From Azospirillaceae bacterium (GTDB lineage Bacteria; Pseudomonadota; Alphaproteobacteria; Azospirillales; Azospirillaceae), in the NCBI GenBank assembly GCA_035645145.1, contig DASQNC010000045.1, positions 1 through 56,752 on the forward strand: a DNA stretch of 56,752 bases. Direction: 5' to 3'. Below, one piece after another: positions 42,872-55,922 of this stretch (its first letter is position 1; every line of letters starts with the position of its first letter). Under the pieces are notes generated by a model. The model saw nothing but the letters and a program-made list of their open reading frames with translations. It did not search any database and was not told the origin of the DNA. Made by a program: the position numbers and the translations under genes.

Positions 42872-43597
42872 TCAGTACATGTGCTGGCCGCCGTTGATGG
42901 ACAGCGTCGAACCGGTGATGAACCCGGCGTCGTCGGCGACCAGGAACAACACGCCGCGGGCGATCTCATCGGCCCGGCCGAGGCGGCCGACCGGGATGCG
43001 TGCGACGATCTTCTCCAGCACGTTCGGGGGCACCGCGCGCACCATGTCGGTGTCGATGTAGCCGGGGGCGATGGCGTTGACGGTGATCCCCTTGGCGGCC
43101 CCTTCCTGGGCCAGGGCCTTCGTGAAGCCGTGGATGCCCGACTTCGCGGCGGCGTAGTTGACCTGACCGTACTGGCCAGCCTGCCCGTTGATCGACCCGA
43201 TGTTGACGATGCGGCCGAAATTGCGCTCCCGCATGCCGTCGATCACCGCGCGGCACATGTTGAAGCACGAGGCCAGATTGGTCTGGATGACTTCGTTCCA
43301 CTGCTCGAAGCTCATCCTGTGGATGGTGGTATCGCGCGTGATGCCGGCGTTGTTGACGACCACCTCGACTGGACCGAGCTGGGCTTCGACCCTGCGCACA
43401 CCTTCCTGGCATGCGTTGAAGTCGGCCACATCCCACTTGAAGGAAGGGATCCCGGTGCGCTCCGAGAATTCGCGCGCCCGCTCGTCATTGCCGCCGTAGT
43501 TGGCGGCCACCTTGTAACCGGCATTCTTCAATGCCACGCAGATCGCCTCGCCGATACCGCGCGTCCCGCCGGTCACGATCGCAACACGTCCGGTCAT
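42872..43597 (-). CDS. phaB: Acetoacetyl-CoA reductase
   Basis: A 241-residue NADPH-dependent SDR that reduces acetoacetyl-CoA to (R)-3-hydroxybutyryl-CoA for PHB. VTGGTRGIGEAI binds NADPH; NNAGITRDTTIHRM is diagnostic of PhaB; the catalytic Ser and YxxxK are in IGSINGQAGQYGQVNYAAAK; IAPGYIDTDMV follows. Length is typical (about 240). It lies 259 bases after phaA on the same strand but behind a strong terminator, so it likely has its own promoter. Confidence 0.93.
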   Translation of the reverse strand: MTGRVAIVTGGTRGIGEAICVALKNAGYKVAANYGGNDERAREFSERTGIPSFKWDVADFNACQEGVRRVEAQLGPVEVVVNNAGITRDTTIHRMSFEQWNEVIQTNLASCFNMCRAVIDGMRERNFGRIVNIGSINGQAGQYGQVNYAAAKSGIHGFTKALAQEGAAKGITVNAIAPGYIDTDMVRAVPPNVLEKIVARIPVGRLGRADEIARGVLFLVADDAGFITGSTLSINGGQHMY

Positions 43598-43856: not shown

Positions 43857-45032
<1,176 letters not shown>

Positions 45033-45155: not shown

Positions 45156-46280
45156 TCAGACGTCCTTCAGGAACTTGGCCAGTGGCGCCCACACCGCTTC
45201 GGGCGCCCGCCGGCCGACCACCATGCCGATGTGCCCCAGCGGCGGTGACAGCACGCGGCCGCCGGGAATGGCGGCGGCCAAGGCGTGGGCGGAGGCCGGC
45301 GGCACGATGCGGTCGTGGGACGGCAGCACGGCCAGGGTCGGCAGACGCAGGACACCCGGATCGACGACCGTGCCTGCGATCCGCCAGGTGCCGCGGCCCG
45401 GCGTATTGGCCCCGTACCAGCCGGCCAGGCATTCCCGCGCCACCGGTGCGGCCAACGGCACGCCGTCGTTCAGCCAATCCTCCAGCGCGATGAAGGCCCG
45501 GTCGGCCGCCTCGTCCCTGCCGGCACGGCCGAACCGTGCGAACTTGCGCACCACCAGGAACGGGTCCAGCACCGCAAACAGGGCCTGGATCATATCCACC
45601 GGAAACTCGCCGCAGGCCTCGACACCGGGAATGCACGCGGCCACAAGGGACGCGTGCCCGGTGCTGTCGGCATGGAAGTCCCAGGGCGTGGCCAGCAGGG
45701 CGAGTGCTGCGACGTCGCCGGCCCGGCGTTGCGTTAGGGCCGTCGCCAGCAATCCGCCCATGCAATAGCCGAGAACCGCGGGCCGGCGATCGGGCCGCAG
45801 CGCGCGCACGGCCTCCAGCGCCCGTTCCAGGCGACCGGCCACATAATCGGTCAGGGTGAAGGTGCGCTCCTCCGCCCCCGGCGCGCCCCAGTCCAGCAGG
45901 TACGGATCGATCCCCTGCGCAGCCAGCCAGCGGACAAGGCTGCTGCCTGCGTCGAGATCCAGCACGGTCGCCCGGTTCACCAGCGAGGGAACCAGCAGGA
46001 CCGGGACGCCGGTCCCCTCGCCATAGGCACGCAGGCCCGCCGTGCCCTCGCGCCAGACAGGTTCGGGATCGGTCAGGCTGCGCCGATAAGGGTGGGCGCG
46101 GTAGCGCTCGACACCGTCCAGAAACGCACCGATCCGTTCGGCCGCCGCCCGGCCGAGCGCCGCCGCCACCGCCTCAGGCGGGTGGGCGTCGAGTGCGGCG
46201 GCGAGGCGGCGTAGATCGGGACTCCAGATTGGCGACGCGCTCCTCGAGGGCGGCCACGCGCGCGGCAAGTTCAGCGACAT
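45156..46280 (-). CDS. phaC: Short class III-like PHA synthase catalytic subunit
   Basis: A 374-residue alpha/beta-hydrolase. The synthase lipase-like box GYCMGG has the active Cys at 173; Asp 323 is in PSHDRIV and His about 349 in LGHIGM, completing the triad. Class I synthases have about 560-600 residues; class III PhaC has about 360, matching this one. The ATG at 46280 is the best start, overlapping the PhaE-like gene by 107 bases; a later GTG (46169) would remove conserved sequence. It polymerises (R)-3-hydroxyacyl-CoA on granules. It could alternatively be a PhaC-like hydrolase of other role, but its neighbours argue for PHA. Confidence 0.82.
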   Translation of the reverse strand: MSLNLPRAWPPSRSASPIWSPDLRRLAAALDAHPPEAVAAALGRAAAERIGAFLDGVERYRAHPYRRSLTDPEPVWREGTAGLRAYGEGTGVPVLLVPSLVNRATVLDLDAGSSLVRWLAAQGIDPYLLDWGAPGAEERTFTLTDYVAGRLERALEAVRALRPDRRPAVLGYCMGGLLATALTQRRAGDVAALALLATPWDFHADSTGHASLVAACIPGVEACGEFPVDMIQALFAVLDPFLVVRKFARFGRAGRDEAADRAFIALEDWLNDGVPLAAPVARECLAGWYGANTPGRGTWRIAGTVVDPGVLRLPTLAVLPSHDRIVPPASAHALAAAIPGGRVLSPPLGHIGMVVGRRAPEAVWAPLAKFLKDV

Positions 46281-46569
46281 CGCCGCCGCCAGATGCAGCG
46301 CCAGTGGCCGCGGGCCGATCCGGTCCCCCGGCTGATCCCTCCTCCCCACCCCGCTCATCGCGCGACCATCCTCCGCGCCCGGGCGCGGCCGTTTCCTGCG
46401 GTGGGGAGGCTCCGGTCGCCGCCCCCATCATCTGCCGCACCATTCGTTCGAACCCGGCCGCCAGAGCCGGATCCGCAGTCATGCGCGCCCATTCCTGCTG
46501 CCACAGGTCGAGGAAGCGTCCGGCGAGCGTGTCCAGATCCTCGGCCGGCCCCTTGTCGGTGTGCGTCAT
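46174..46569 (-). CDS. Small PhaE-like/coiled-coil partner of PHA synthase
   Basis: A 131-residue protein. N-terminal helix DTLAGRFLDLWQQEWARM and MVRQMM resemble the start of PhaE subunits; a disordered Gly/Pro/Ala linker follows; the C-terminal part is a coiled coil (ELAARVAALEERVANLESR) with a basic tail, as at the end of PhaE. Usual bacterial PhaE has about 350 residues, so this is a minimal form. It overlaps phaC by 107 bases in another frame, tying their synthesis. Function is inferred from place and pattern. ATG at 46569 is chosen; upstream starts (46602) are possible. Confidence 0.6.
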   Translation of the reverse strand: MTHTDKGPAEDLDTLAGRFLDLWQQEWARMTADPALAAGFERMVRQMMGAATGASPPQETAAPGRGGWSRDERGGEEGSAGGPDRPAATGAASGGGDVAELAARVAALEERVANLESRSTPPRRRTRRPPA

Positions 46570-46725
46570 GGATGGAATTGAACCCCTCATCCGGCTGGTC
46601 AATCAAGCGGCACGCTCCGCCCCTGTCCGGACCAAGGGCACACCGGATCGGGGCCGCGAGGACGCCGGTTGCTCCGATTCCGGGAGAGCACTTGCGGCAT
46701 AGCCACGGAGTCGCGTACTCCTGAT

Positions 46726-46752
46726 GGCAAGTTGTTTTTGCACAGGCTTGCC
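46726..46752. promoter_or_regulatory. Inverted repeat GGCAAG-N15-CTTGCC upstream of phaR
   Basis: The two halves flank a TTGTTTTTGCACA segment 14 bases before the phaR ATG; another CTTGCGGC lies at 46691. PhaR proteins repress their own genes, so this is a candidate autoregulatory site. Confidence 0.35.
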
Positions 46753-46765
46753 GGAAAGTCCGCCC

Positions 46766-47380
46766 ATGGCTGAACAGGAAGGCGCCGAAAAGCGCGTCGT
46801 CACAATCAAAAAGTACGCCAATCGCCGGCTCTACAACACCGCATCGAGCAGCTATGTGACGCTCGACCATCTGGCCCAAATGGTCAAGGACGGGGTCGAT
46901 TTCGTCGTGTACGACGCAAAGACCGGCGAAGATATCACCCGCTCCGTTCTTACCCAAATCATCGTGGAAGAGGAAGCAAAAGGACAGCACCTCCTGCCGA
47001 TCAGCTTTCTTCGTCAATTGATTGGATTCTACGGCGACAGCATGCAGTGGGTGGTACCAAAATACCTTGAACACAGCATGCAATCTCTGGCTCACAACCA
47101 GGAACAGATGCGGGAATATTTTAAAAATACGATCACTGGCGTATTTCCATTCGCACCGCTCGACGCAGTGAGCAAACAGAACATGGCCATGTTCGAGCAA
47201 GCCTTGCGAATGTTCACGCCGTTCCAAACGACCGTGGACCAGCGCGCCGAACCTCGTGCCAAGGATCCTGCCCAGACGGGTGCCAAATCCGGCAACGAAA
47301 AGGCCATCGACGAGCTGCAAAGCCGGCTGGACGAGTTGCAGCGGCAGCTTGGCGAGCTGACCGGATCAAAAAAAACCTAA
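46766..47380 (+). CDS. phaR: PHA synthesis repressor PhaR
   Basis: A 204-residue regulator. N-terminal DNA-binding domain: VTIKKYANRRLYNTASSSYV, LAQMVKDGVDFVVYDAKTGE, DITRSVLTQIIVEEE. Then the PHB-accumulation domain (LRQLIGFYGDSMQWVVPKYL) and a C-terminal coiled coil (ELQSRLDELQRQLGEL). It binds DNA and PHB granules and releases phasin and pha genes when polymer appears. ATG 46766 has GGAAAG eight bases upstream. Divergent from the phaE-phaC pair, typical of pha regions. Confidence 0.93.
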   Translation: MAEQEGAEKRVVTIKKYANRRLYNTASSSYVTLDHLAQMVKDGVDFVVYDAKTGEDITRSVLTQIIVEEEAKGQHLLPISFLRQLIGFYGDSMQWVVPKYLEHSMQSLAHNQEQMREYFKNTITGVFPFAPLDAVSKQNMAMFEQALRMFTPFQTTVDQRAEPRAKDPAQTGAKSGNEKAIDELQSRLDELQRQLGELTGSKKT

Positions 47381-47872: not shown

Positions 47873-50782
47873 TCAGCGCGACAACAGCATCGCCACCGGG
47901 AAACGGGCAAACAGATCGGCCACGGCGATCCGGCCGCCCTTCCCAACCGGCAATGTGCCCGCTCCTCCGAACACGTCGTGCAGAACGAGATCCGCCGGCA
48001 CATCGCCCAGACGCAGCACCGTGTCGCCCCACACCCCACGTGGCGGCACCAACCCGTCGGTGCCGCCCAGCAGCGTACAGGACAGGCGGGGAACGACGAC
48101 CAGCGCAAGATCCGCCCCACGACGGCGCAGGAATGCCACCAAATGGTCGGCTTGGGCCCCTTCGGCCGGCACCGGCACATAGTCCCCGGCCGCGAACAGG
48201 GCCGGCCGTTCCCGCCGAATGCCGAGGGCCGCGGCCACCACGCGCTGCTTGATTCGCCCGTCGGGCCAATGCGCCAGCAGTTCGTCCAAGGACGTCTCCT
48301 GGTCGAGAGCGGCGGTGCGGGCACCCCAGTCCACGGGCCGGCGGTTGTCCGGATCGACCAGACTGAAATCCCAGAACTCGGTGCCCTGATAGATGTCGGG
48401 GACGCCGGGCACCGTCAGCTTCAGCAGTGTCTGGGCGAGGCCGTTGACGGCGGCCGGCCGGCGGATCAAGGCCACCAGATCGACCAGATCGGACAGGAAC
48501 GCGGCACTCTGGCCCGGATCCAGCAGGGCACGCAGGAACGCCTCCAGTGCGGCCTCGTACTCCGCATCCGGGGCGGCCCAACTCGACCACCGCTTGCCCT
48601 CGCGCACGGCCTTTTGCATGTACGCCGCGACCCGGTCCGCCAAGCCCGGCACCGGCTTCCTTGGATCGGCGGCATCCGGCGGCCAGGTCCCGACCAGGAT
48701 CTGGTACAGCAGGTACTCGTCCTCGGCCGAGGGGACGAGGGCCTTCGGTGGCCGCTCGCCGATCCGGCGTTTCAGCGGCGCATTGAGGCGCGACCATTTC
48801 TCGGTCCGGCGCGCCCATTCGTCGGGCATTTCGCTTAGGACGTTGAGACGGGCGCGCGTGTCTTCGCCGCGCTTGTGGTCGTGGGTGGCCGTGGCGACAA
48901 GGCCGTGGGGAAAACGCTCCAGGCGTTCCTGGTTCTGACGGTGGAACAGGTCGGGCGGAGTGCCGAACCGGTCCGGATCACCGCCAACCTCGTTCAGCGA
49001 GACCAGCCGGTTGTAACGGTAGAAGGCCGTATCCTCGACCGCCTTGGCCATCACCGGGCCGGTGAACTGCTGGATCTTCCGGGCCACCCGGAAAACCGTG
49101 TCCGCGTCATAGCCGGGCCGGCCTTTGCGCGCCAAGTCACCGGTCAGCGCATCGCGCAGGAAGTCGAAGACACTGGTGTCGATCAGCTCGGTCCGCCGCT
49201 TGGCATGGCGAATGGCATGTTCGATGTGCCGCCGATCGTCGTCCGAAATCTGCTCGGGCGTGACATAGGTGCGGTACACCGGGAAATGGGACACCACGTC
49301 CACCAGCGCACGGCGCAGACCCGTGAGGGTGTAGTCGCGGCTGGCCCAACTTTGCTGGGCCAAGCGGTAGAGTTCGGTCGCGCGCCCCGTCAGTTCGCTG
49401 ACCAGATCGTTCATGACGACGCGGCGCTTCGCCTCGACCATGAGCGCGTCGTAGTCGGGATGCTGGCCGACGAACCGGGCATAGGCCTCGGTCACCCCCG
49501 CCTCGTTCGACGGATCGACGAACAGGCCGCTGACCGCCGCCATGAATTCGTATCCGGTGGTGCCCGCCACCGGCCAGTCGCGCCCCAGATGCTCATCGCC
49601 GACCAGGATCTTTTCGATCAGCAGATAGAAGGGCTGGGCAAGCCGAATACCCTCGGCCGGCAACGGGGCCGATGCCGGGGATTGGAGCATCAGGTAGGCG
49701 ATACGGTCCTGAAGCTTGTGGCAATAGCCGATGGGATCGAACAGCCCGTCCACATGGTCGAGCCGCAGCCCCTGGATCCGGCCTTCCGAAATCAGGCGGA
49801 AGACCAGGCCGTGGACCATTTCGAAGCATTCCGGGTGCTCGATCCTCAGACCGGCGAGATCGTTCACATCGAAGAAGCGGCGATAGTTGATTTCGTCCGA
49901 CGCGACCCGCCAGAACGCCACCCGGTAGTTCTGCGCCTCCAGCAACCGGTGCAGGGCCGCATGGGACAGCCCGGCCTCATCCCCTCGTCCATCGCCGCCC
50001 TGGCCGTTCACCTCGGCCAACGCAGCCTGGATGCCGTCCGCAACGGCTTGCGTACGGGCAAGTTCGGCCAGCCGGGACTTCAGGGTTTCCGCCTCCCGCC
50101 GCAGCATCGCCTGCTGTTGGGCCGATCCGGGCCCTCCTTCGCACTTCTCGACGGTCAGCGCCTCGAACCCTTCGGCCAAGGCCCCCAACTCCGCCGCGGC
50201 ATCCGGGGCGGTCCGGCCGGCGTGGCGCAGCAACGGCCCGTAAGCCTTGACGGCCAGTGGGAACCGATGGTCGTAGTAGCGGAACCCGAAGGCGCCGGCG
50301 TCGGCCTCGAAGGCCAGCACCAGTTCGCCCCGGTCCAGGATGCCGCCGTAATGATCGCCCAGCACCGGCAGCAGCACCTTGCCGTGCAATGCCTGCACCA
50401 GCGGATGCCAGTCGATGTCGAAGAAGGCGGCATAGGGCGAGGCTTCGCCCCATTCCAGCACATCCATCCACCACGGATTGCCGCTGCCCACGCCCATGTG
50501 GTTGGGCACGAAGTCCAGGATCAGACCCATGCCATGAGCATCGAGCGCCGCCGTCAGCCGGTCCAGCGCCGCCCAATCGCCGATTTCGGGATTGAGCTGA
50601 TTGTGGTCGGTGATGTCGTAACCGTGGGTCGATCCCTCCCGGGCCTTGAGGAAGGGCGACGCGTAGATGTGGCTGACCCCCAGCTTCGCGAAGTAGGGCA
50701 CAAGGGCCGTCGCCCGGTCGAACCCGAAATCCTTATGGAACTGCAGGCGGATGGTGGCGCGCGGAACGGCGGGCCCGGGCAT
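47873..50782 (-). CDS. treY: Malto-oligosyltrehalose synthase
   Basis: A 969-residue GH13 enzyme that turns the reducing-end alpha-1,4 bond of a maltodextrin into alpha,alpha-1,1. Start RATIRLQFHKDFGFDRA and SHIYASPFLKAREGSTHGYD are diagnostic. Catalytic regions: ILDFVPNHMG, LRLDHVDGLFDP, and TATHDHKRGEDTRARL; GVPDIYQGTEFWDFSLVDPD near the end. It lies four bases after malQ in one operon. Length is at the upper end of the family. Confidence 0.93.
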   Translation of the reverse strand: MPGPAVPRATIRLQFHKDFGFDRATALVPYFAKLGVSHIYASPFLKAREGSTHGYDITDHNQLNPEIGDWAALDRLTAALDAHGMGLILDFVPNHMGVGSGNPWWMDVLEWGEASPYAAFFDIDWHPLVQALHGKVLLPVLGDHYGGILDRGELVLAFEADAGAFGFRYYDHRFPLAVKAYGPLLRHAGRTAPDAAAELGALAEGFEALTVEKCEGGPGSAQQQAMLRREAETLKSRLAELARTQAVADGIQAALAEVNGQGGDGRGDEAGLSHAALHRLLEAQNYRVAFWRVASDEINYRRFFDVNDLAGLRIEHPECFEMVHGLVFRLISEGRIQGLRLDHVDGLFDPIGYCHKLQDRIAYLMLQSPASAPLPAEGIRLAQPFYLLIEKILVGDEHLGRDWPVAGTTGYEFMAAVSGLFVDPSNEAGVTEAYARFVGQHPDYDALMVEAKRRVVMNDLVSELTGRATELYRLAQQSWASRDYTLTGLRRALVDVVSHFPVYRTYVTPEQISDDDRRHIEHAIRHAKRRTELIDTSVFDFLRDALTGDLARKGRPGYDADTVFRVARKIQQFTGPVMAKAVEDTAFYRYNRLVSLNEVGGDPDRFGTPPDLFHRQNQERLERFPHGLVATATHDHKRGEDTRARLNVLSEMPDEWARRTEKWSRLNAPLKRRIGERPPKALVPSAEDEYLLYQILVGTWPPDAADPRKPVPGLADRVAAYMQKAVREGKRWSSWAAPDAEYEAALEAFLRALLDPGQSAAFLSDLVDLVALIRRPAAVNGLAQTLLKLTVPGVPDIYQGTEFWDFSLVDPDNRRPVDWGARTAALDQETSLDELLAHWPDGRIKQRVVAAALGIRRERPALFAAGDYVPVPAEGAQADHLVAFLRRRGADLALVVVPRLSCTLLGGTDGLVPPRGVWGDTVLRLGDVPADLVLHDVFGGAGTLPVGKGGRIAVADLFARFPVAMLLSR

Positions 50783-50786
50783 GGCA

Positions 50787-52973
50787 TCAACCTCCCACAG
50801 TCGGCCGCTCGGCCCGGATGGCGTCCAGGATGGCCCGCGCCATCGGCTGGTCGAAGATCCGGTCGAGCGGCACCTCGGTGCGGCGGCGCCAGTTCGGGTG
50901 CTCGTCCACCGTACCCGGCAGGTTCGGTTGCTCCATGGCGCCGGCCAAGTCTTCCAAACCCACCATCAGGATGCGGCCGGCGGTCCGGGCCAGGTAGCGG
51001 TACACGGCTGCCGCCAGCTCCGGTGGGAGCTGGGCCGGCGGGTTCGTGCGGTCGATGCCGGGTGGAAGCAGGCCCGCGCGGTCGAGCGCATCCAGCAAGC
51101 GGAACCGGTCCAGGTACCGGTTGTGCCCCTCCTCCAGACGCGCGGCCTCCTCCGGGTAGAATTCCAGCCGCGCGCGCCAAGCCAGGTCGCGACCATCCCA
51201 CCAACCCGGCAGCGTGGGCAGGTCGTGGGTGGAGGCGGTGACCAGCGCCTGGGACGGATAGGCACCGGGCTGCAGGAATTCCTGGTCGGCGTCGCGCTCG
51301 AACCACAGCACCCGATAGGACAGGATGCCCGCCGTCTGCATGCGCGGCCGGAACCCTTCGGGGACGGTTCCCAGATCCTCGCCGATCACCAGGCAGCGGT
51401 TGCGCCGGGATTCCAGCGCGATGATGCGGACCAGATCGTCCAAAGGATAGCGCACATAGGCTCCCTCGTTGCCGGGCCGGCCCTCGGGGATCCAGAATAG
51501 GCGCATCAGCGACATCACGTGGTCGATGCGGATCGCCCCGGCATGCCGCATCGAGGCGCGCAGCACCTCGATGAAGGGAGCGTAGCCGGCCTCGGCCAAG
51601 CCCCACGGCGAGAGCGGCGACAGGCCCCAGTTCTGCCCCAGTGAATTGAGCAGATCGGGCGGCGCCCCGACGGACACGCCCGACAGCACCACGTCGGGAA
51701 AGCTCCAGGCCGTGGCGCCGCCCGGATGCTCGGCGACCGCAAGGTCCACGTACAAGCCGATGGGCATGCCCGCATTCCGGGCCTCGGCCTGGGCCGCTGC
51801 CAACTGGCGGTCCGCCACCCATTGCAGCCAGGCGAAGAAATCCACCCGTTCGGCATTCTCCTCGGCGAAGCGGCGGACATCGGGGCTGTCGGGCCGGCGA
51901 AGGCCTTCCGGCCATTCCCGCCACATCCAAGCACCGGCCCCATCGGCGTAGACATGCTCATGCAGGGCATCGAACAGGGCTTGGCGATCCAACGCCTCGC
52001 CCCGCTCCGCCCGGAAGAAGCGGAAATCCTTGCCGCGTTCCGTTTCGTCCGTCCCGTGCAGCTCACGGAAACGGCGGTGCAGCATGGCGAGCACGGGAAG
52101 CTTCAGGCGTGCAACGGCGGCATAGTCCACCCGCTCGGCCGAACGTGCGGCCGCAAGCTCGGCCTGGAACCCCGGTTCCCCGACACGGATACGCGCATCC
52201 GGGCACTCGGCGAATTCCGGCATACCCGCCACGTCGATGTAGGCGGCATTCAGGAACGCCCGGTTCGAGGGCGAATAAGGGCTGAAATGACCGGGATCGG
52301 CGGGGAATTGAGCGTGGAGCGGGTTCAATCCCAGCACGCCGGCCCCCTGGGCGGCAGCCGCGCGGCTGAACTCGGCCAAGTCATGGAAATCGCCGATGCC
52401 CCACCCGCGCTCCGACCGAAGCCCGTAAAGCTGGACGGCAATCCCCCAGAAGGCTTGGTCCGGGTCCACGTCCTGCGGCCCCATGCAGCGTTCAGGAGCC
52501 ACGATCAGGGTGCACGTCGACTCCAGCCCGCCGCCCGTGCGTACCACCAGCCGGTGGTAACCGATCGGCAGCAGAAGGGGAATGTTCAATCGTCGGCGCC
52601 GCAACAGCACCCCGTCCACCATGCGGCTTTCGCCCGCCGGCATGGCGAGGGCTTCGAAGGCGCCACTGTGCTCGGCCCCGGTCCCCTCCTCCACCACGGT
52701 CCAAACGCCGACGGACGTTTCCGGCAGGGTCAGTTCGACGGACGGTGAGGCTTGGTCGGTGACCACCAGCGCCGGCGGCAGGATTCGCCGCCACGGGCGC
52801 TCCTCGACGGCGCGGAGGCTGGCCTGCAGCGCGTCCTCGCTCGTGACGTCGAACCCCATGGCGGACAACAGGGCCCGCTTGGTGTCATCGGGCACCTGCG
52901 TCTTCTTGCCGAAGATGTCGACCCATTCCAACTCGATCCCAGCGGTTGCGGCCAAGCGGTCCAAAACCGTCAT
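50787..52973 (-). CDS. malQ: 4-alpha-glucanotransferase (amylomaltase)
   Basis: A 728-residue GH77 enzyme. N-terminal MalQ-type domains (about 1-200), then FSPYSPSNRAFLNAAYIDV, IRIDHVMSLMRLFWIPEG (nucleophile region), LVIGEDLGTVP (acid/base Glu) and STHDLPTLPGWW. It rearranges maltodextrins left by debranching so TreY can use them. ATG 52973 overlaps the treZ stop by one base (TGATG). Between treZ and treY, a known arrangement. Confidence 0.92.
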   Translation of the reverse strand: MTVLDRLAATAGIELEWVDIFGKKTQVPDDTKRALLSAMGFDVTSEDALQASLRAVEERPWRRILPPALVVTDQASPSVELTLPETSVGVWTVVEEGTGAEHSGAFEALAMPAGESRMVDGVLLRRRRLNIPLLLPIGYHRLVVRTGGGLESTCTLIVAPERCMGPQDVDPDQAFWGIAVQLYGLRSERGWGIGDFHDLAEFSRAAAAQGAGVLGLNPLHAQFPADPGHFSPYSPSNRAFLNAAYIDVAGMPEFAECPDARIRVGEPGFQAELAAARSAERVDYAAVARLKLPVLAMLHRRFRELHGTDETERGKDFRFFRAERGEALDRQALFDALHEHVYADGAGAWMWREWPEGLRRPDSPDVRRFAEENAERVDFFAWLQWVADRQLAAAQAEARNAGMPIGLYVDLAVAEHPGGATAWSFPDVVLSGVSVGAPPDLLNSLGQNWGLSPLSPWGLAEAGYAPFIEVLRASMRHAGAIRIDHVMSLMRLFWIPEGRPGNEGAYVRYPLDDLVRIIALESRRNRCLVIGEDLGTVPEGFRPRMQTAGILSYRVLWFERDADQEFLQPGAYPSQALVTASTHDLPTLPGWWDGRDLAWRARLEFYPEEAARLEEGHNRYLDRFRLLDALDRAGLLPPGIDRTNPPAQLPPELAAAVYRYLARTAGRILMVGLEDLAGAMEQPNLPGTVDEHPNWRRRTEVPLDRIFDQPMARAILDAIRAERPTVGG

Positions 52974-54802
52974 CAAGTCGTCTCCACGCGGTACCAAAGG
53001 GCGGACCACCCCGCCAGATTGCCGCGGGCCAGCATGTCCGCGGCTTCGGGATCGCTTGCGGCGATCAGGCGGCCTGCCGGCGTTTCGGCGGGGGCGGCCT
53101 CCGGCCCCAGGTTCGCCACCAGCATGAGCCCCCCCGGCCCGAAACGCCAGTCGACGTCGATCCGGGCGGCTCCCGGCGTCCGGACCGTCGCACGGGCGGT
53201 GCCACTCCCGGCCAGGAGCGGCACCACCTCGCGCATGCGTATGCGCAACAGCTCGCGGACATGGGCCAACCAACCCGCCGCCTCCGAACCGGACAGCGCA
53301 GTCCAGTCCAGCTTGGCCATGTGGAACGTGTCTTTGGCGAGGGGATCGGGGATGCGCGCGCGGGCCGCCGGATCCCGGAAGGCGGGGAAGTGCTCGAATT
53401 CCCGGCGGCGCCCCTCGCGGACCGCGTCGGCCAGATCGCCCTGGAAGTCGCAGAAGAACGGGAACGGCTGGCGACACCCCCACTCCTCGCCCATGAACAG
53501 CATCGGTGGCTGCGGGGCCAGAAGCAGCACCGTCATCATGGCGCGCAGGGTCCGCGGGTCGGCAAGCCGGGTCAGCCGCTCACCCATGGCACGGTTGCCG
53601 ATCTGGTCATGGTTCTGCAGGAAGCTGACAAAGGCGGTGGGGGGGAGATCGCCGGACGGTTCGCCGCGCCTGGCGTGATCCCGGTGGGGCGACGGTTCGC
53701 CCTGATAGGCGAACCCTTCGGCCAGGCATCGGGCGAAACGGCGGAGCGGCGCCTCGGCATAGTCGCGGTAGTAACCGTCGGCTTCGCCGGTCGCCAGCAC
53801 ATGGGCGGCGTGGTGCCAGTCGTCGTCCCACTGGGCGTCGTAGAACCGGGGACGCCCGTCGTCGCGGGCCAGCAGCGACGACCGGTTGTCGTCGTTCTCC
53901 AACACCAGATGGACGGCCCGGTCGGTGATGCGCGACCGCACCGTGCGCGCAAGTTCGTGCAGGATATGTTCGTCGCTGTCGTCGGCGATCGCATGCACCG
54001 CGTCCAGGCGCAGGCCGTCGAACCGGAACTCCTCCAGCCAATACAGCGCATTGTGGATGGCGAAATCGCGCACTGGCCGGGCGCCCGCCCCGTCGTAGTT
54101 GATGGCGGCCCCCCACGGCGTCTTGTGCCGGTCGGTGAAGAAGGGAGCGGCATAACGGCCGAGGTAATTCCCCTCCGGCCCGAAGTGGTTGTAGACCACG
54201 TCCAGGAACACCATCAGGCCGCGGGCATGCGCCTCGTCCACCAGGGCCTTCAGGTCGTCCGGAGTGCCGTAGGCGCTGTCGGGCGCGTAGGGCAGCACCC
54301 CGTCGTACCCCCACCCGCGCCGGCCCGCGAAGTCCGACAGGGGCATCAATTCCACAGCGGTCACGCCAATCGACACCAGGTGGTCGAGCCGGCGGCGTAC
54401 GCCGTCGAAGGTGCCTTCCTCGGAAAAGGTCCCGACATGCAGTTCGTAGAGCACCGTCTCGTGCCAGGGCCGGCCGCGCCAGTCGGCAGTCCGCCACGTA
54501 TAGGCGTGCGGATCGACGACGACGCTGGGACCGGACACATCGTCGGGTTGCCAACGCGATGCCGGATCGGGCACCCGCAACCCGTCCGCCAGCTCGAAGC
54601 GGTAGCGGCTGCCGGCGTGCGCCCTGTCGGTCACCAGTTCGAAAAATCCGCCCCCGGCCGGCTGCATGGGCAGGCGTTCGTTGTTCTCCTCCAGCACCAG
54701 GAACAGGCTTTGTTCGGATGGGGCCCACAGGCGGAAGCGTACGTGGCCGTCCTCGCGCAGCTGGGCTCCGAACGGCATCGCATGGGCGAAATGGGCGGTC
54801 AT
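52973..54802 (-). CDS. treZ: Malto-oligosyltrehalose trehalohydrolase
   Basis: A 609-residue GH13 enzyme that releases trehalose from the TreY product. N-terminal beta domain (VRFRLWAPSEQSLFLVLEE), then the barrel: YELHVGTFSEEGTFDG, FLDVVYNHFGPEGNYLG, DGLRLDAVHAI, LVLENDDN and FLQNHDQIGNRAMGERL; EEWGCRQPFPFFCDF is specific to TreZ. Length is normal. GGAG stands six bases before the ATG at 54802. Confidence 0.93.
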   Translation of the reverse strand: MTAHFAHAMPFGAQLREDGHVRFRLWAPSEQSLFLVLEENNERLPMQPAGGGFFELVTDRAHAGSRYRFELADGLRVPDPASRWQPDDVSGPSVVVDPHAYTWRTADWRGRPWHETVLYELHVGTFSEEGTFDGVRRRLDHLVSIGVTAVELMPLSDFAGRRGWGYDGVLPYAPDSAYGTPDDLKALVDEAHARGLMVFLDVVYNHFGPEGNYLGRYAAPFFTDRHKTPWGAAINYDGAGARPVRDFAIHNALYWLEEFRFDGLRLDAVHAIADDSDEHILHELARTVRSRITDRAVHLVLENDDNRSSLLARDDGRPRFYDAQWDDDWHHAAHVLATGEADGYYRDYAEAPLRRFARCLAEGFAYQGEPSPHRDHARRGEPSGDLPPTAFVSFLQNHDQIGNRAMGERLTRLADPRTLRAMMTVLLLAPQPPMLFMGEEWGCRQPFPFFCDFQGDLADAVREGRRREFEHFPAFRDPAARARIPDPLAKDTFHMAKLDWTALSGSEAAGWLAHVRELLRIRMREVVPLLAGSGTARATVRTPGAARIDVDWRFGPGGLMLVANLGPEAAPAETPAGRLIAASDPEAADMLARGNLAGWSALWYRVETT

Positions 54803-54896
54803 GGGAGGCTCCGGGGCGGCGCGCCTTGCTGCGCGTAGCCCGAAACGCCCCCGAACCGGGCAGGTTCCCACTGGGACCGTTCTAGGATGGGTCCGG

Positions 54897-55922
54897 CTAT
54901 GGGATGGAGGCTGCGATCGGCGCGGTTTCATCGGCCAAGGCCGAGGCCGCCATCCTGGATGCCAGAATCTCCTTGAGCCGCGTGCGGTAGGTCTGCACGG
55001 CCGCCTTGACGTCGGCCTCCATGTCCTTGACCTGGCGGTCGGGGTTGATGGCCCGCATCAATTGCATGGCGGCCAAGCGGAGGCTTGCCAGCCGCTCGGG
55101 CGCTCGCCCCTCCGGATGGACGATGTTGTCGATGTGCTCGTTCAGCGCCGTCGCGATACGGTCGGTTGCCACCCGAAGCTCGGGATCGCGAATGCGCCGC
55201 AGGAAATCCTCGATGATCGCGGGCACGCGCTGGACGTGCTCCATGGCCATGGGGTCCGGCTGTTTGCCGACGAGGCCGGGGAGCGCGTACTCCACCAGGA
55301 AGGCCACCTGAAAGGCATGCCCGACCAGCTTGTGCTGGTTGATCAGGTCGAAGCTTTCGGCGAGTTCGGCCTGAAGATCCACTTGGCCGAACTGGTTCAC
55401 GGCCTTGAGCCGTACCGTGTTCGGCGGATCCATTGAGGACGCCAGCCGCGGATTATCGCGCGACTGCCGGCGCCGGTCAGGGCCTATGTAGTCGCTGGTG
55501 ACAACGAACGGGCGGCGCTGCTCGACCAGGGCAATCAGCCGGTCTTCAACCTGCTTTATGGAGACCGGTTTGGCCATCAGATCGTCGGCACCGGCATTGG
55601 TCGCGCGCGCCAGCATCAAGTTGGTCGGGTTCCATGTCGACACGACGATGCCGAGAAACGGATTGCGGAGCACGTGACCGTGCCGCACTTGGTTCAGGAA
55701 CTTGAAATTGGGACTGTCCGGCGCATCGGCATCAATGATCAGGAGATCCGGCATACCGGCCGAGGCCCCCCCCTCCATCTTCTCCATCATGGATTGGGGG
55801 CTGTCGAATTCGGTGATCGTCTTAACATCGATATGGTTCAATGCCGTGCGGATGATCCGACGGGTGTGGATCTGCGGATCAATAATAAGCACCTCGACGG
55901 CCGAAAAATTGTATTCACCCAT
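54897..55922 (-). CDS. Response regulator with unknown helical output
   Basis: A 341-residue protein. The receiver domain (about 6-130) has VLIIDPQIHTRRIIR, the likely phospho-Asp at 64 in LLIIDADAP, and MAKPVSIKQVEDRL with the conserved Lys. A YIGPDRRRQSR motif follows at about 144, seen in several alphaproteobacterial response regulators. The C-terminal 180 residues are helical and match no DNA-binding domain I know. It sits between glgX and treZ in the same direction, so it may be co-transcribed. Output unknown. Confidence 0.75.
   Translation of the reverse strand: MGEYNFSAVEVLIIDPQIHTRRIIRTALNHIDVKTITEFDSPQSMMEKMEGGASAGMPDLLIIDADAPDSPNFKFLNQVRHGHVLRNPFLGIVVSTWNPTNLMLARATNAGADDLMAKPVSIKQVEDRLIALVEQRRPFVVTSDYIGPDRRRQSRDNPRLASSMDPPNTVRLKAVNQFGQVDLQAELAESFDLINQHKLVGHAFQVAFLVEYALPGLVGKQPDPMAMEHVQRVPAIIEDFLRRIRDPELRVATDRIATALNEHIDNIVHPEGRAPERLASLRLAAMQLMRAINPDRQVKDMEADVKAAVQTYRTRLKEILASRMAASALADETAPIAASIP

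Follow-up and report, generated by a model that had tools for sequence, protein, structure and literature searches.

A conserved small gene with a PhaE-like layout overlaps a short PHA synthase gene in Alphaproteobacteria

The pha locus of an Azospirillaceae bacterium (GenBank assembly GCA_035645145.1, contig DASQNC010000045.1) raises the question of whether a short PHA synthase gene and a small reading frame that overlaps its 5' part encode a minimal two-part synthase, as was originally predicted from the sequence of the 56,752-nucleotide stretch analysed here (hereafter the window). Both genes lie on the reverse strand, and the pair is followed by phaA, encoding an acetyl-CoA acetyltransferase (43857..45032 (-); TIGR01930, 479.6 bits, above cut-off), and phaB, encoding an acetoacetyl-CoA reductase (42872..43597 (-); TIGR01829, 361.1 bits, above cut-off). 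The PHA synthesis repressor gene phaR is divergent (46724..47380 (+), with a start that may be further in; TIGR01848, 154.7 bits, above cut-off). Among relatives, phaA is found downstream of the short phaC in 56/76 loci and phaB in 50/76, while phaR is divergent in 70 of the 71 family loci having enough upstream sequence. Genes for TreY (malto-oligosyltrehalose synthase), a MalQ-type 4-alpha-glucanotransferase and TreZ, which make up a trehalose/glycogen set, adjoin the pha locus at 47873-54931 (-).

The PhaC frame was initially given as 374 residues. The stretch 45156-46280 (-) does translate to a protein of this length containing GYCMGG, but its start appears to be misplaced, because a conserved motif, GPRPLxLH followed by hydrophobic residues, is encoded in the PhaC frame upstream of the ATG at 46280. 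In the window the motif reads GPRPLALH (PhaC residues 15-22, 46293..46316 (-)); its strict form is present in 109/124 family loci, and among the other 15 several carry looser forms and some have no motif or are cut. Translation from the ATG at 46358 yields a PhaC of 400 residues (45156..46358 (-)), and this codon is preceded by GGAGG (46370..46374 (-)), a possible ribosome-binding site, with no such match before the ATG at 46280. On account of the motif we set aside both the 46280 start and a GTG at residue 39, located after the overlap, which would abolish it. The PhaC of the window is thus probably the 400-residue form, sharing 185 bp (46174..46358 (-)) with the partner in different frames; the 107 bp of the original prediction is the correct value for the shorter PhaC, also between different frames, and is superseded with it. 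Shine-Dalgarno evidence for the upstream start is only supportive, a match of at least 4 being found at some upstream start in 37/109 loci and at some downstream start in 12/109. AlphaFold2 modelled PhaC residues 11-30, with the motif inside, at block confidences of 89 and 83, and residues 33-43 below 50. Residues G15, P16, R17, P18, L19 and H22 are invariant in the 63 aligned rows of alignment A2, which were picked for carrying the GPRPL motif. In the 109 strict-motif loci the partner and PhaC overlap by 92-320 bp (median 215), taking as start the nearest in-frame ATG before the motif, or else GTG/TTG, and a single frame offset between the two genes is found in 109/109. The annotated PhaC of A. 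brasilense Sp7 begins within an unlisted partner ORF.

The PhaC was described as class III-like, and its nearest family is indeed class III (TIGR01836, 159.6 bits, versus 81.7 for class I), but this score is far below the cut-off of 365.3, as is that of the 400-residue form (159.3 bits). PhaC_N (PF07167) scores 15.4 bits, below its threshold of 23.7, so the class I feature is lacking, and PF09712, the PhaE model of Pfam, has no match in the window's whole genome. Class III membership fails on two of the features tested, both of them family models. All 63 rows of alignment A2 match TIGR01836 (best E 1.5e-55), and in all of them the Cys-Asp-His triad is invariant; in the window it corresponds to Cys199, the nucleophile of GYCMGG (codon 45762..45764 (-)), Asp349 (45312..45314 (-)) and His376 (45231..45233 (-)). 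The AlphaFold2 model of PhaC has a mean pLDDT of 91.5, and its best solved structure in Foldseek is 9knj, the PhaC of Aeromonas caviae (E=1.4e-16). The phylogeny called for by the original prediction, a quick tree of 49 rows without bootstrap that has unsettled deep forks and long-branch warnings, places the short PhaC in a clade of its own (23 rows including four divergent relatives, SH-aLRT 99); the class III PhaC accompanied by PhaE, archaeal class III and class I fall outside it. Two loci (L050 and L051, genomes G034 and G007) encode a further short PhaC-like protein adjoining a class I PhaC, which groups in this tree with a plasmid gene of Azoarcus KH32C.

The partner frame, 46174..46569 (-), translates to 131 residues in a frame different from that of PhaC, exactly as predicted. 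A partner lies upstream of, and overlaps, PhaC in 120 of 124 related loci, with the same relative frame in 119. The first locus set lists 46 loci, from which L050 and L051 were left out as another PhaC type; a same-strand, upstream, overlapping partner ORF is present in 41 of the remaining 44 family loci, the misses being L039 and L040, which have no partner, and L004, where the stretch begins inside PhaC. The second set, which has species in common with the first, contains the partner in 79/80 loci with one frame offset throughout (the miss is L130), although in 5 of the 79 the match is poorer than 1e-6, down to 0.0066. The partner frame is long in two loci, L020 and L116, and its N block was not placed there. 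Ten further loci were selected for having a stop inside the PhaC match, and here the partner was found in nine by eye and in eight by pattern, L221 being without it. Family PhaC proteins without an overlapping partner thus occur in L039, L040, L130 and L221. One locus (L007, genome G019) carries a frame shift in the overlap, possibly a sequencing error, that disrupts the N-terminus of PhaC and the partner coil together and alters the offset between the two frames. Another (L157), titled Mycobacterium sp. KBS0706, has this alphaproteobacterial gene pair, and its name or assembly looks wrong.

Two blocks of the partner are conserved, LARRYLDLWQxQ...ADP and LxRRLAxLExRLAxLE, with a variable linker between them, and sequence conservation indicates that it is a real gene. 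It was called miniature, which holds in comparison with PhaE (353-449 residues in 30 sequences) but not within its own family, where about 100-200 residues is usual; for this reason a truncated or decayed PhaE was rejected. The partner is absent from the gene tables of 5/5 Azospirillum plasmid records checked, a subset of the 14 Azospirillum records with a match, and since these tables are incomplete by their own description this absence is not proof. The partner seems to be undescribed so far.

No PhaE model (NCBIfam; PF09712 in Pfam) matches any of 55 partner sequences at E<=0.1, and the PhaR-type subunit of Bacillus is not among the families matched by these 55 partners. AlphaFold2 predicts helices at residues 12-32 and 34-53, forming a hairpin, and at residues 97-118 (block confidences ~89-95), with a linker of pLDDT ~55; the pTM is 0.34, and therefore the mutual arrangement of the helices is not defined by the model. 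A fold search with this model gave 0 matches, and a sequence search of the PDB with one PhaE as query found no PhaE. In a first comparison, against full-length PhaE only, the partner profile gave P=1.2e-3 and a probability of 18.8%. When the PhaE side was a core profile, made of 30 full-length PhaE and 8 short ones, the result was P=1.2e-5, with both blocks aligned in order and 0/60 column shuffles scoring as high. The controls weaken this match: the reversed PhaE core scores 16.0 versus 34.4, the N block of the partner alone scores 16.5, barely more than the 15.8 reached by the highest of 100 shuffles, and the coil, which gives most of the PhaE-core score, also matches PhaR (P=1.3e-4). The partner is PhaE-like in layout, and the profile comparison is only suggestive of homology with PhaE.

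The coil and the tail behind it are also features that would favour a different role: instead of being a synthase subunit, the partner could resemble PhaM or phasins, serving as an activator or in attachment to the granule or nucleoid, and travel with this phaC. Behind the coil comes a basic tail, with a positive net charge in 53/54 tails (median +6), that recalls PhaM of Cupriavidus necator; the similarity of the coil to that of PhaR, and the few genomes that carry the short PhaC without a partner, point in the same direction. The tail is not basic in every low-GC locus, however (L214 and L219 are exceptions), the alignment to the PhaE core involves both blocks in order, and the near-strict pairing with one PhaC together with the conserved overlap fits a dedicated subunit, so that we regard an attachment or activator protein as unlikely.

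The distribution of the short PhaC does not fit a lone minimal oddity, as the protein is present in 34/34 other genomes of the window's family and in 184/387 sampled genomes of the class (E<=1e-30, a limit near which matches may be other short PhaC). PhaC_N occurs in 260/387 sampled genomes of the class. Against its own case, the original prediction had named a class I phaC elsewhere doing all synthesis and the absence of interaction between the two proteins; half of this was found, in that a class I phaC is present on another contig of the window's genome. This is the general situation, with PhaC_N of class I also present in 180/184 genomes having the short PhaC and in 157/158 of a stricter set whose weakest member is near E=1e-97; the pair is therefore nearly always a second synthase system. 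The short PhaC is alone in four genomes (G041, G439, G445 and G519) and PhaC_N is alone in 80. What stands of the minimal two-part synthase is a conserved, co-encoded small partner with a PhaE-like layout and a PhaC with its triad; it is a fair working idea with putative interaction and activity.

The same coexistence would also fit a short PhaC that is a modulating or hydrolytic paralogue, with the class I PhaC making the polymer and the pair tuning it. In agreement with such a role, 5/5 Azospirillum plasmid records label the short PhaC 'alpha/beta fold hydrolase' in RefSeq, an A. brasilense phbC mutant is devoid of PHB granules (PMC10383645; this phbC may or may not be the class I gene), and PhaC2 of Bradyrhizobium has been proposed to modulate PhaC1 (PMC10888616, accessible part). 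Considering that the Cys nucleophile and the full triad are invariant in the 63 rows, and that phaA and phaB adjoin the short phaC, a paralogue of this kind seems to us quite improbable.

To see how a stretch read in two frames has evolved, differences were counted by codon position in 69 loci (2193 pairs). The filter used for this count fixes PhaC residues at three columns, which are therefore biased, and accounts for most of the 40/109 loci that were dropped. The window's own locus fails it, so the constraint is that seen in relatives; in the window's PhaC part of the consensus is changed in the coil stretch. In the GPRPL segment the differences are mostly at PhaC third positions (share 0.58), as in two PhaC-only segments (0.56 and 0.74), and in the partner N block, outside PhaC, the third-position share in its own frame is 0.59. 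The coil segment (partner residues 97-118, 46216..46281 (-) in the window, also within the PhaC frame) gives shares of 0.217, 0.334 and 0.297 at PhaC positions 1, 2 and 3, with the peak at PhaC position 2, which is the third position of the partner. Based on these shares, both frames constrain the coil stretch in the relatives, while the GPRPL stretch is constrained for PhaC and the partner continues through it as an A/G/S-rich linker. It is very hard to believe, then, that the partner ORF is untranslated, an artefact of the long open frames to which a GC-rich sequence is prone: a GC content of 64-70% in the window does make spurious frames common, and the Azospirillum tables, incomplete as they are, omit the partner, but its blocks are conserved in a fixed frame, its own third-position signal appears where PhaC is absent, and its frame stays free of stops at GC contents of 41%, 51% and 56% (loci L219, L220 and L216).

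Compared with known systems, the pair resembles class III (TIGR01836, PF09712) in having a short PhaC with a Cys-Asp-His triad and a partner built of a helix block and then a coil. It differs in that the PhaC is below the cut-off, falls in a separate clade of the quick tree and has an N-terminal GPRPL extension, and in that the partner has about one third of the length of PhaE and is missed by PhaE models. Haloferax larsenii (L209) similarly has a short PhaE (182 residues) directly upstream of PhaC and overlapping it, but there the overlap is 4 bp, PhaE is recognised by annotation and PhaC has 475 residues. Other alphaproteobacterial loci (L083-L086; Rhizobium, L169; Bosea, L170) also have a small partner just 5' of a short PhaC, although that partner has a PhaE core with an LPSR-like motif and the PhaC is outside the window's clade; four of these short PhaE compared with full PhaE gave P=1.1e-9. 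The short PhaE of L083, L084, L085 and L086, of ~115-126 residues and beside a short PhaC of the other clade, form a second mini-PhaE series. The class IV PhaR subunit and PhaM are small helical helpers of PhaC, which the partner may resemble.

The short PhaC itself is not new, as PhaC1 of Rhodospirillum rubrum (Rru_A0275) is a probable member of the family. This assignment is made because published phaC1 primers, when translated, contain PLANIR and VEDWLN, each in a single frame, in agreement with the family motifs DPxLxxRKF and [LV]EDWLND; the primer pattern itself was absent from 176 loci and 17 genomes. R. rubrum PhaC1 also heads a phaC1-phaA-phaB operon, a setting like that of the window. 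According to the accessible part of PMC4026134, the identities among PhaC1-3 are 14.3, 18.4 and 50.2%, which we read as making PhaC1 the odd one of the three; PhaC2 is the main synthase, and overexpression of phaC1 raised PHA ~1.4-fold. The accessible part of PMC9999600 gives the phaC1 transcript as undetectable and PhaC2 as less active than the other two, and that of PMC11268599 gives Rru_A0275 as induced in gas cultures. In the parts of these three papers available no partner subunit is named for PhaC1; the single mention of phaE, in PMC11268599, concerns PHA synthase in general. Among the literature matches listed, seen in part and with most subscription journals outside their range, no PhaE or small partner was found for this group. 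Since phaC1 was overexpressed alone, with the native locus still present, the partner may not be needed.

Taking these results together, we consider it moderately probable that the genes constitute a two-gene short PHA synthase unit heading a phaAB operon, that is, a second, PhaE-like-assisted synthase. In this unit PhaC (~400 residues) would be the polymerase, of alpha/beta-hydrolase fold, whose Cys-Asp-His triad joins 3-hydroxyacyl-CoA units, and the overlapping partner would be a small helical accessory subunit acting like a reduced PhaE. Binding to PhaC would be through the N-terminal hairpin of the partner and pairing of the complex through its coil, and the basic tail may contact the granule or the nucleoid; the pair would normally serve as a second synthase beside the class I PhaC. 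That PhaC polymerises in this organism and that the partner binds it, like the roles of the coil and tail, is what we infer from these features.

More tentatively, the pair may represent a separate class of two-part PHA synthases, widespread in Rhodospirillales-type Alphaproteobacteria, of which R. rubrum PhaC1 would have been studied without its small subunit; the latter would have escaped notice because ~100-300 bp of its gene also belong to phaC, read in the other frame. If this is true, annotation lacks one subunit of a common branch of PHA synthases, a possible reason for the seemingly minor part of the phaAB-linked synthase in R. rubrum, and engineers would gain a helper of ~14 kDa (estimated from its length) instead of a full-size PhaE. 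It would also be a further clear example of two same-strand genes with a long overlap constrained in both frames. The main interest of the locus lies in the apparently overlooked partner and in the long coding stretch that it shares with phaC.
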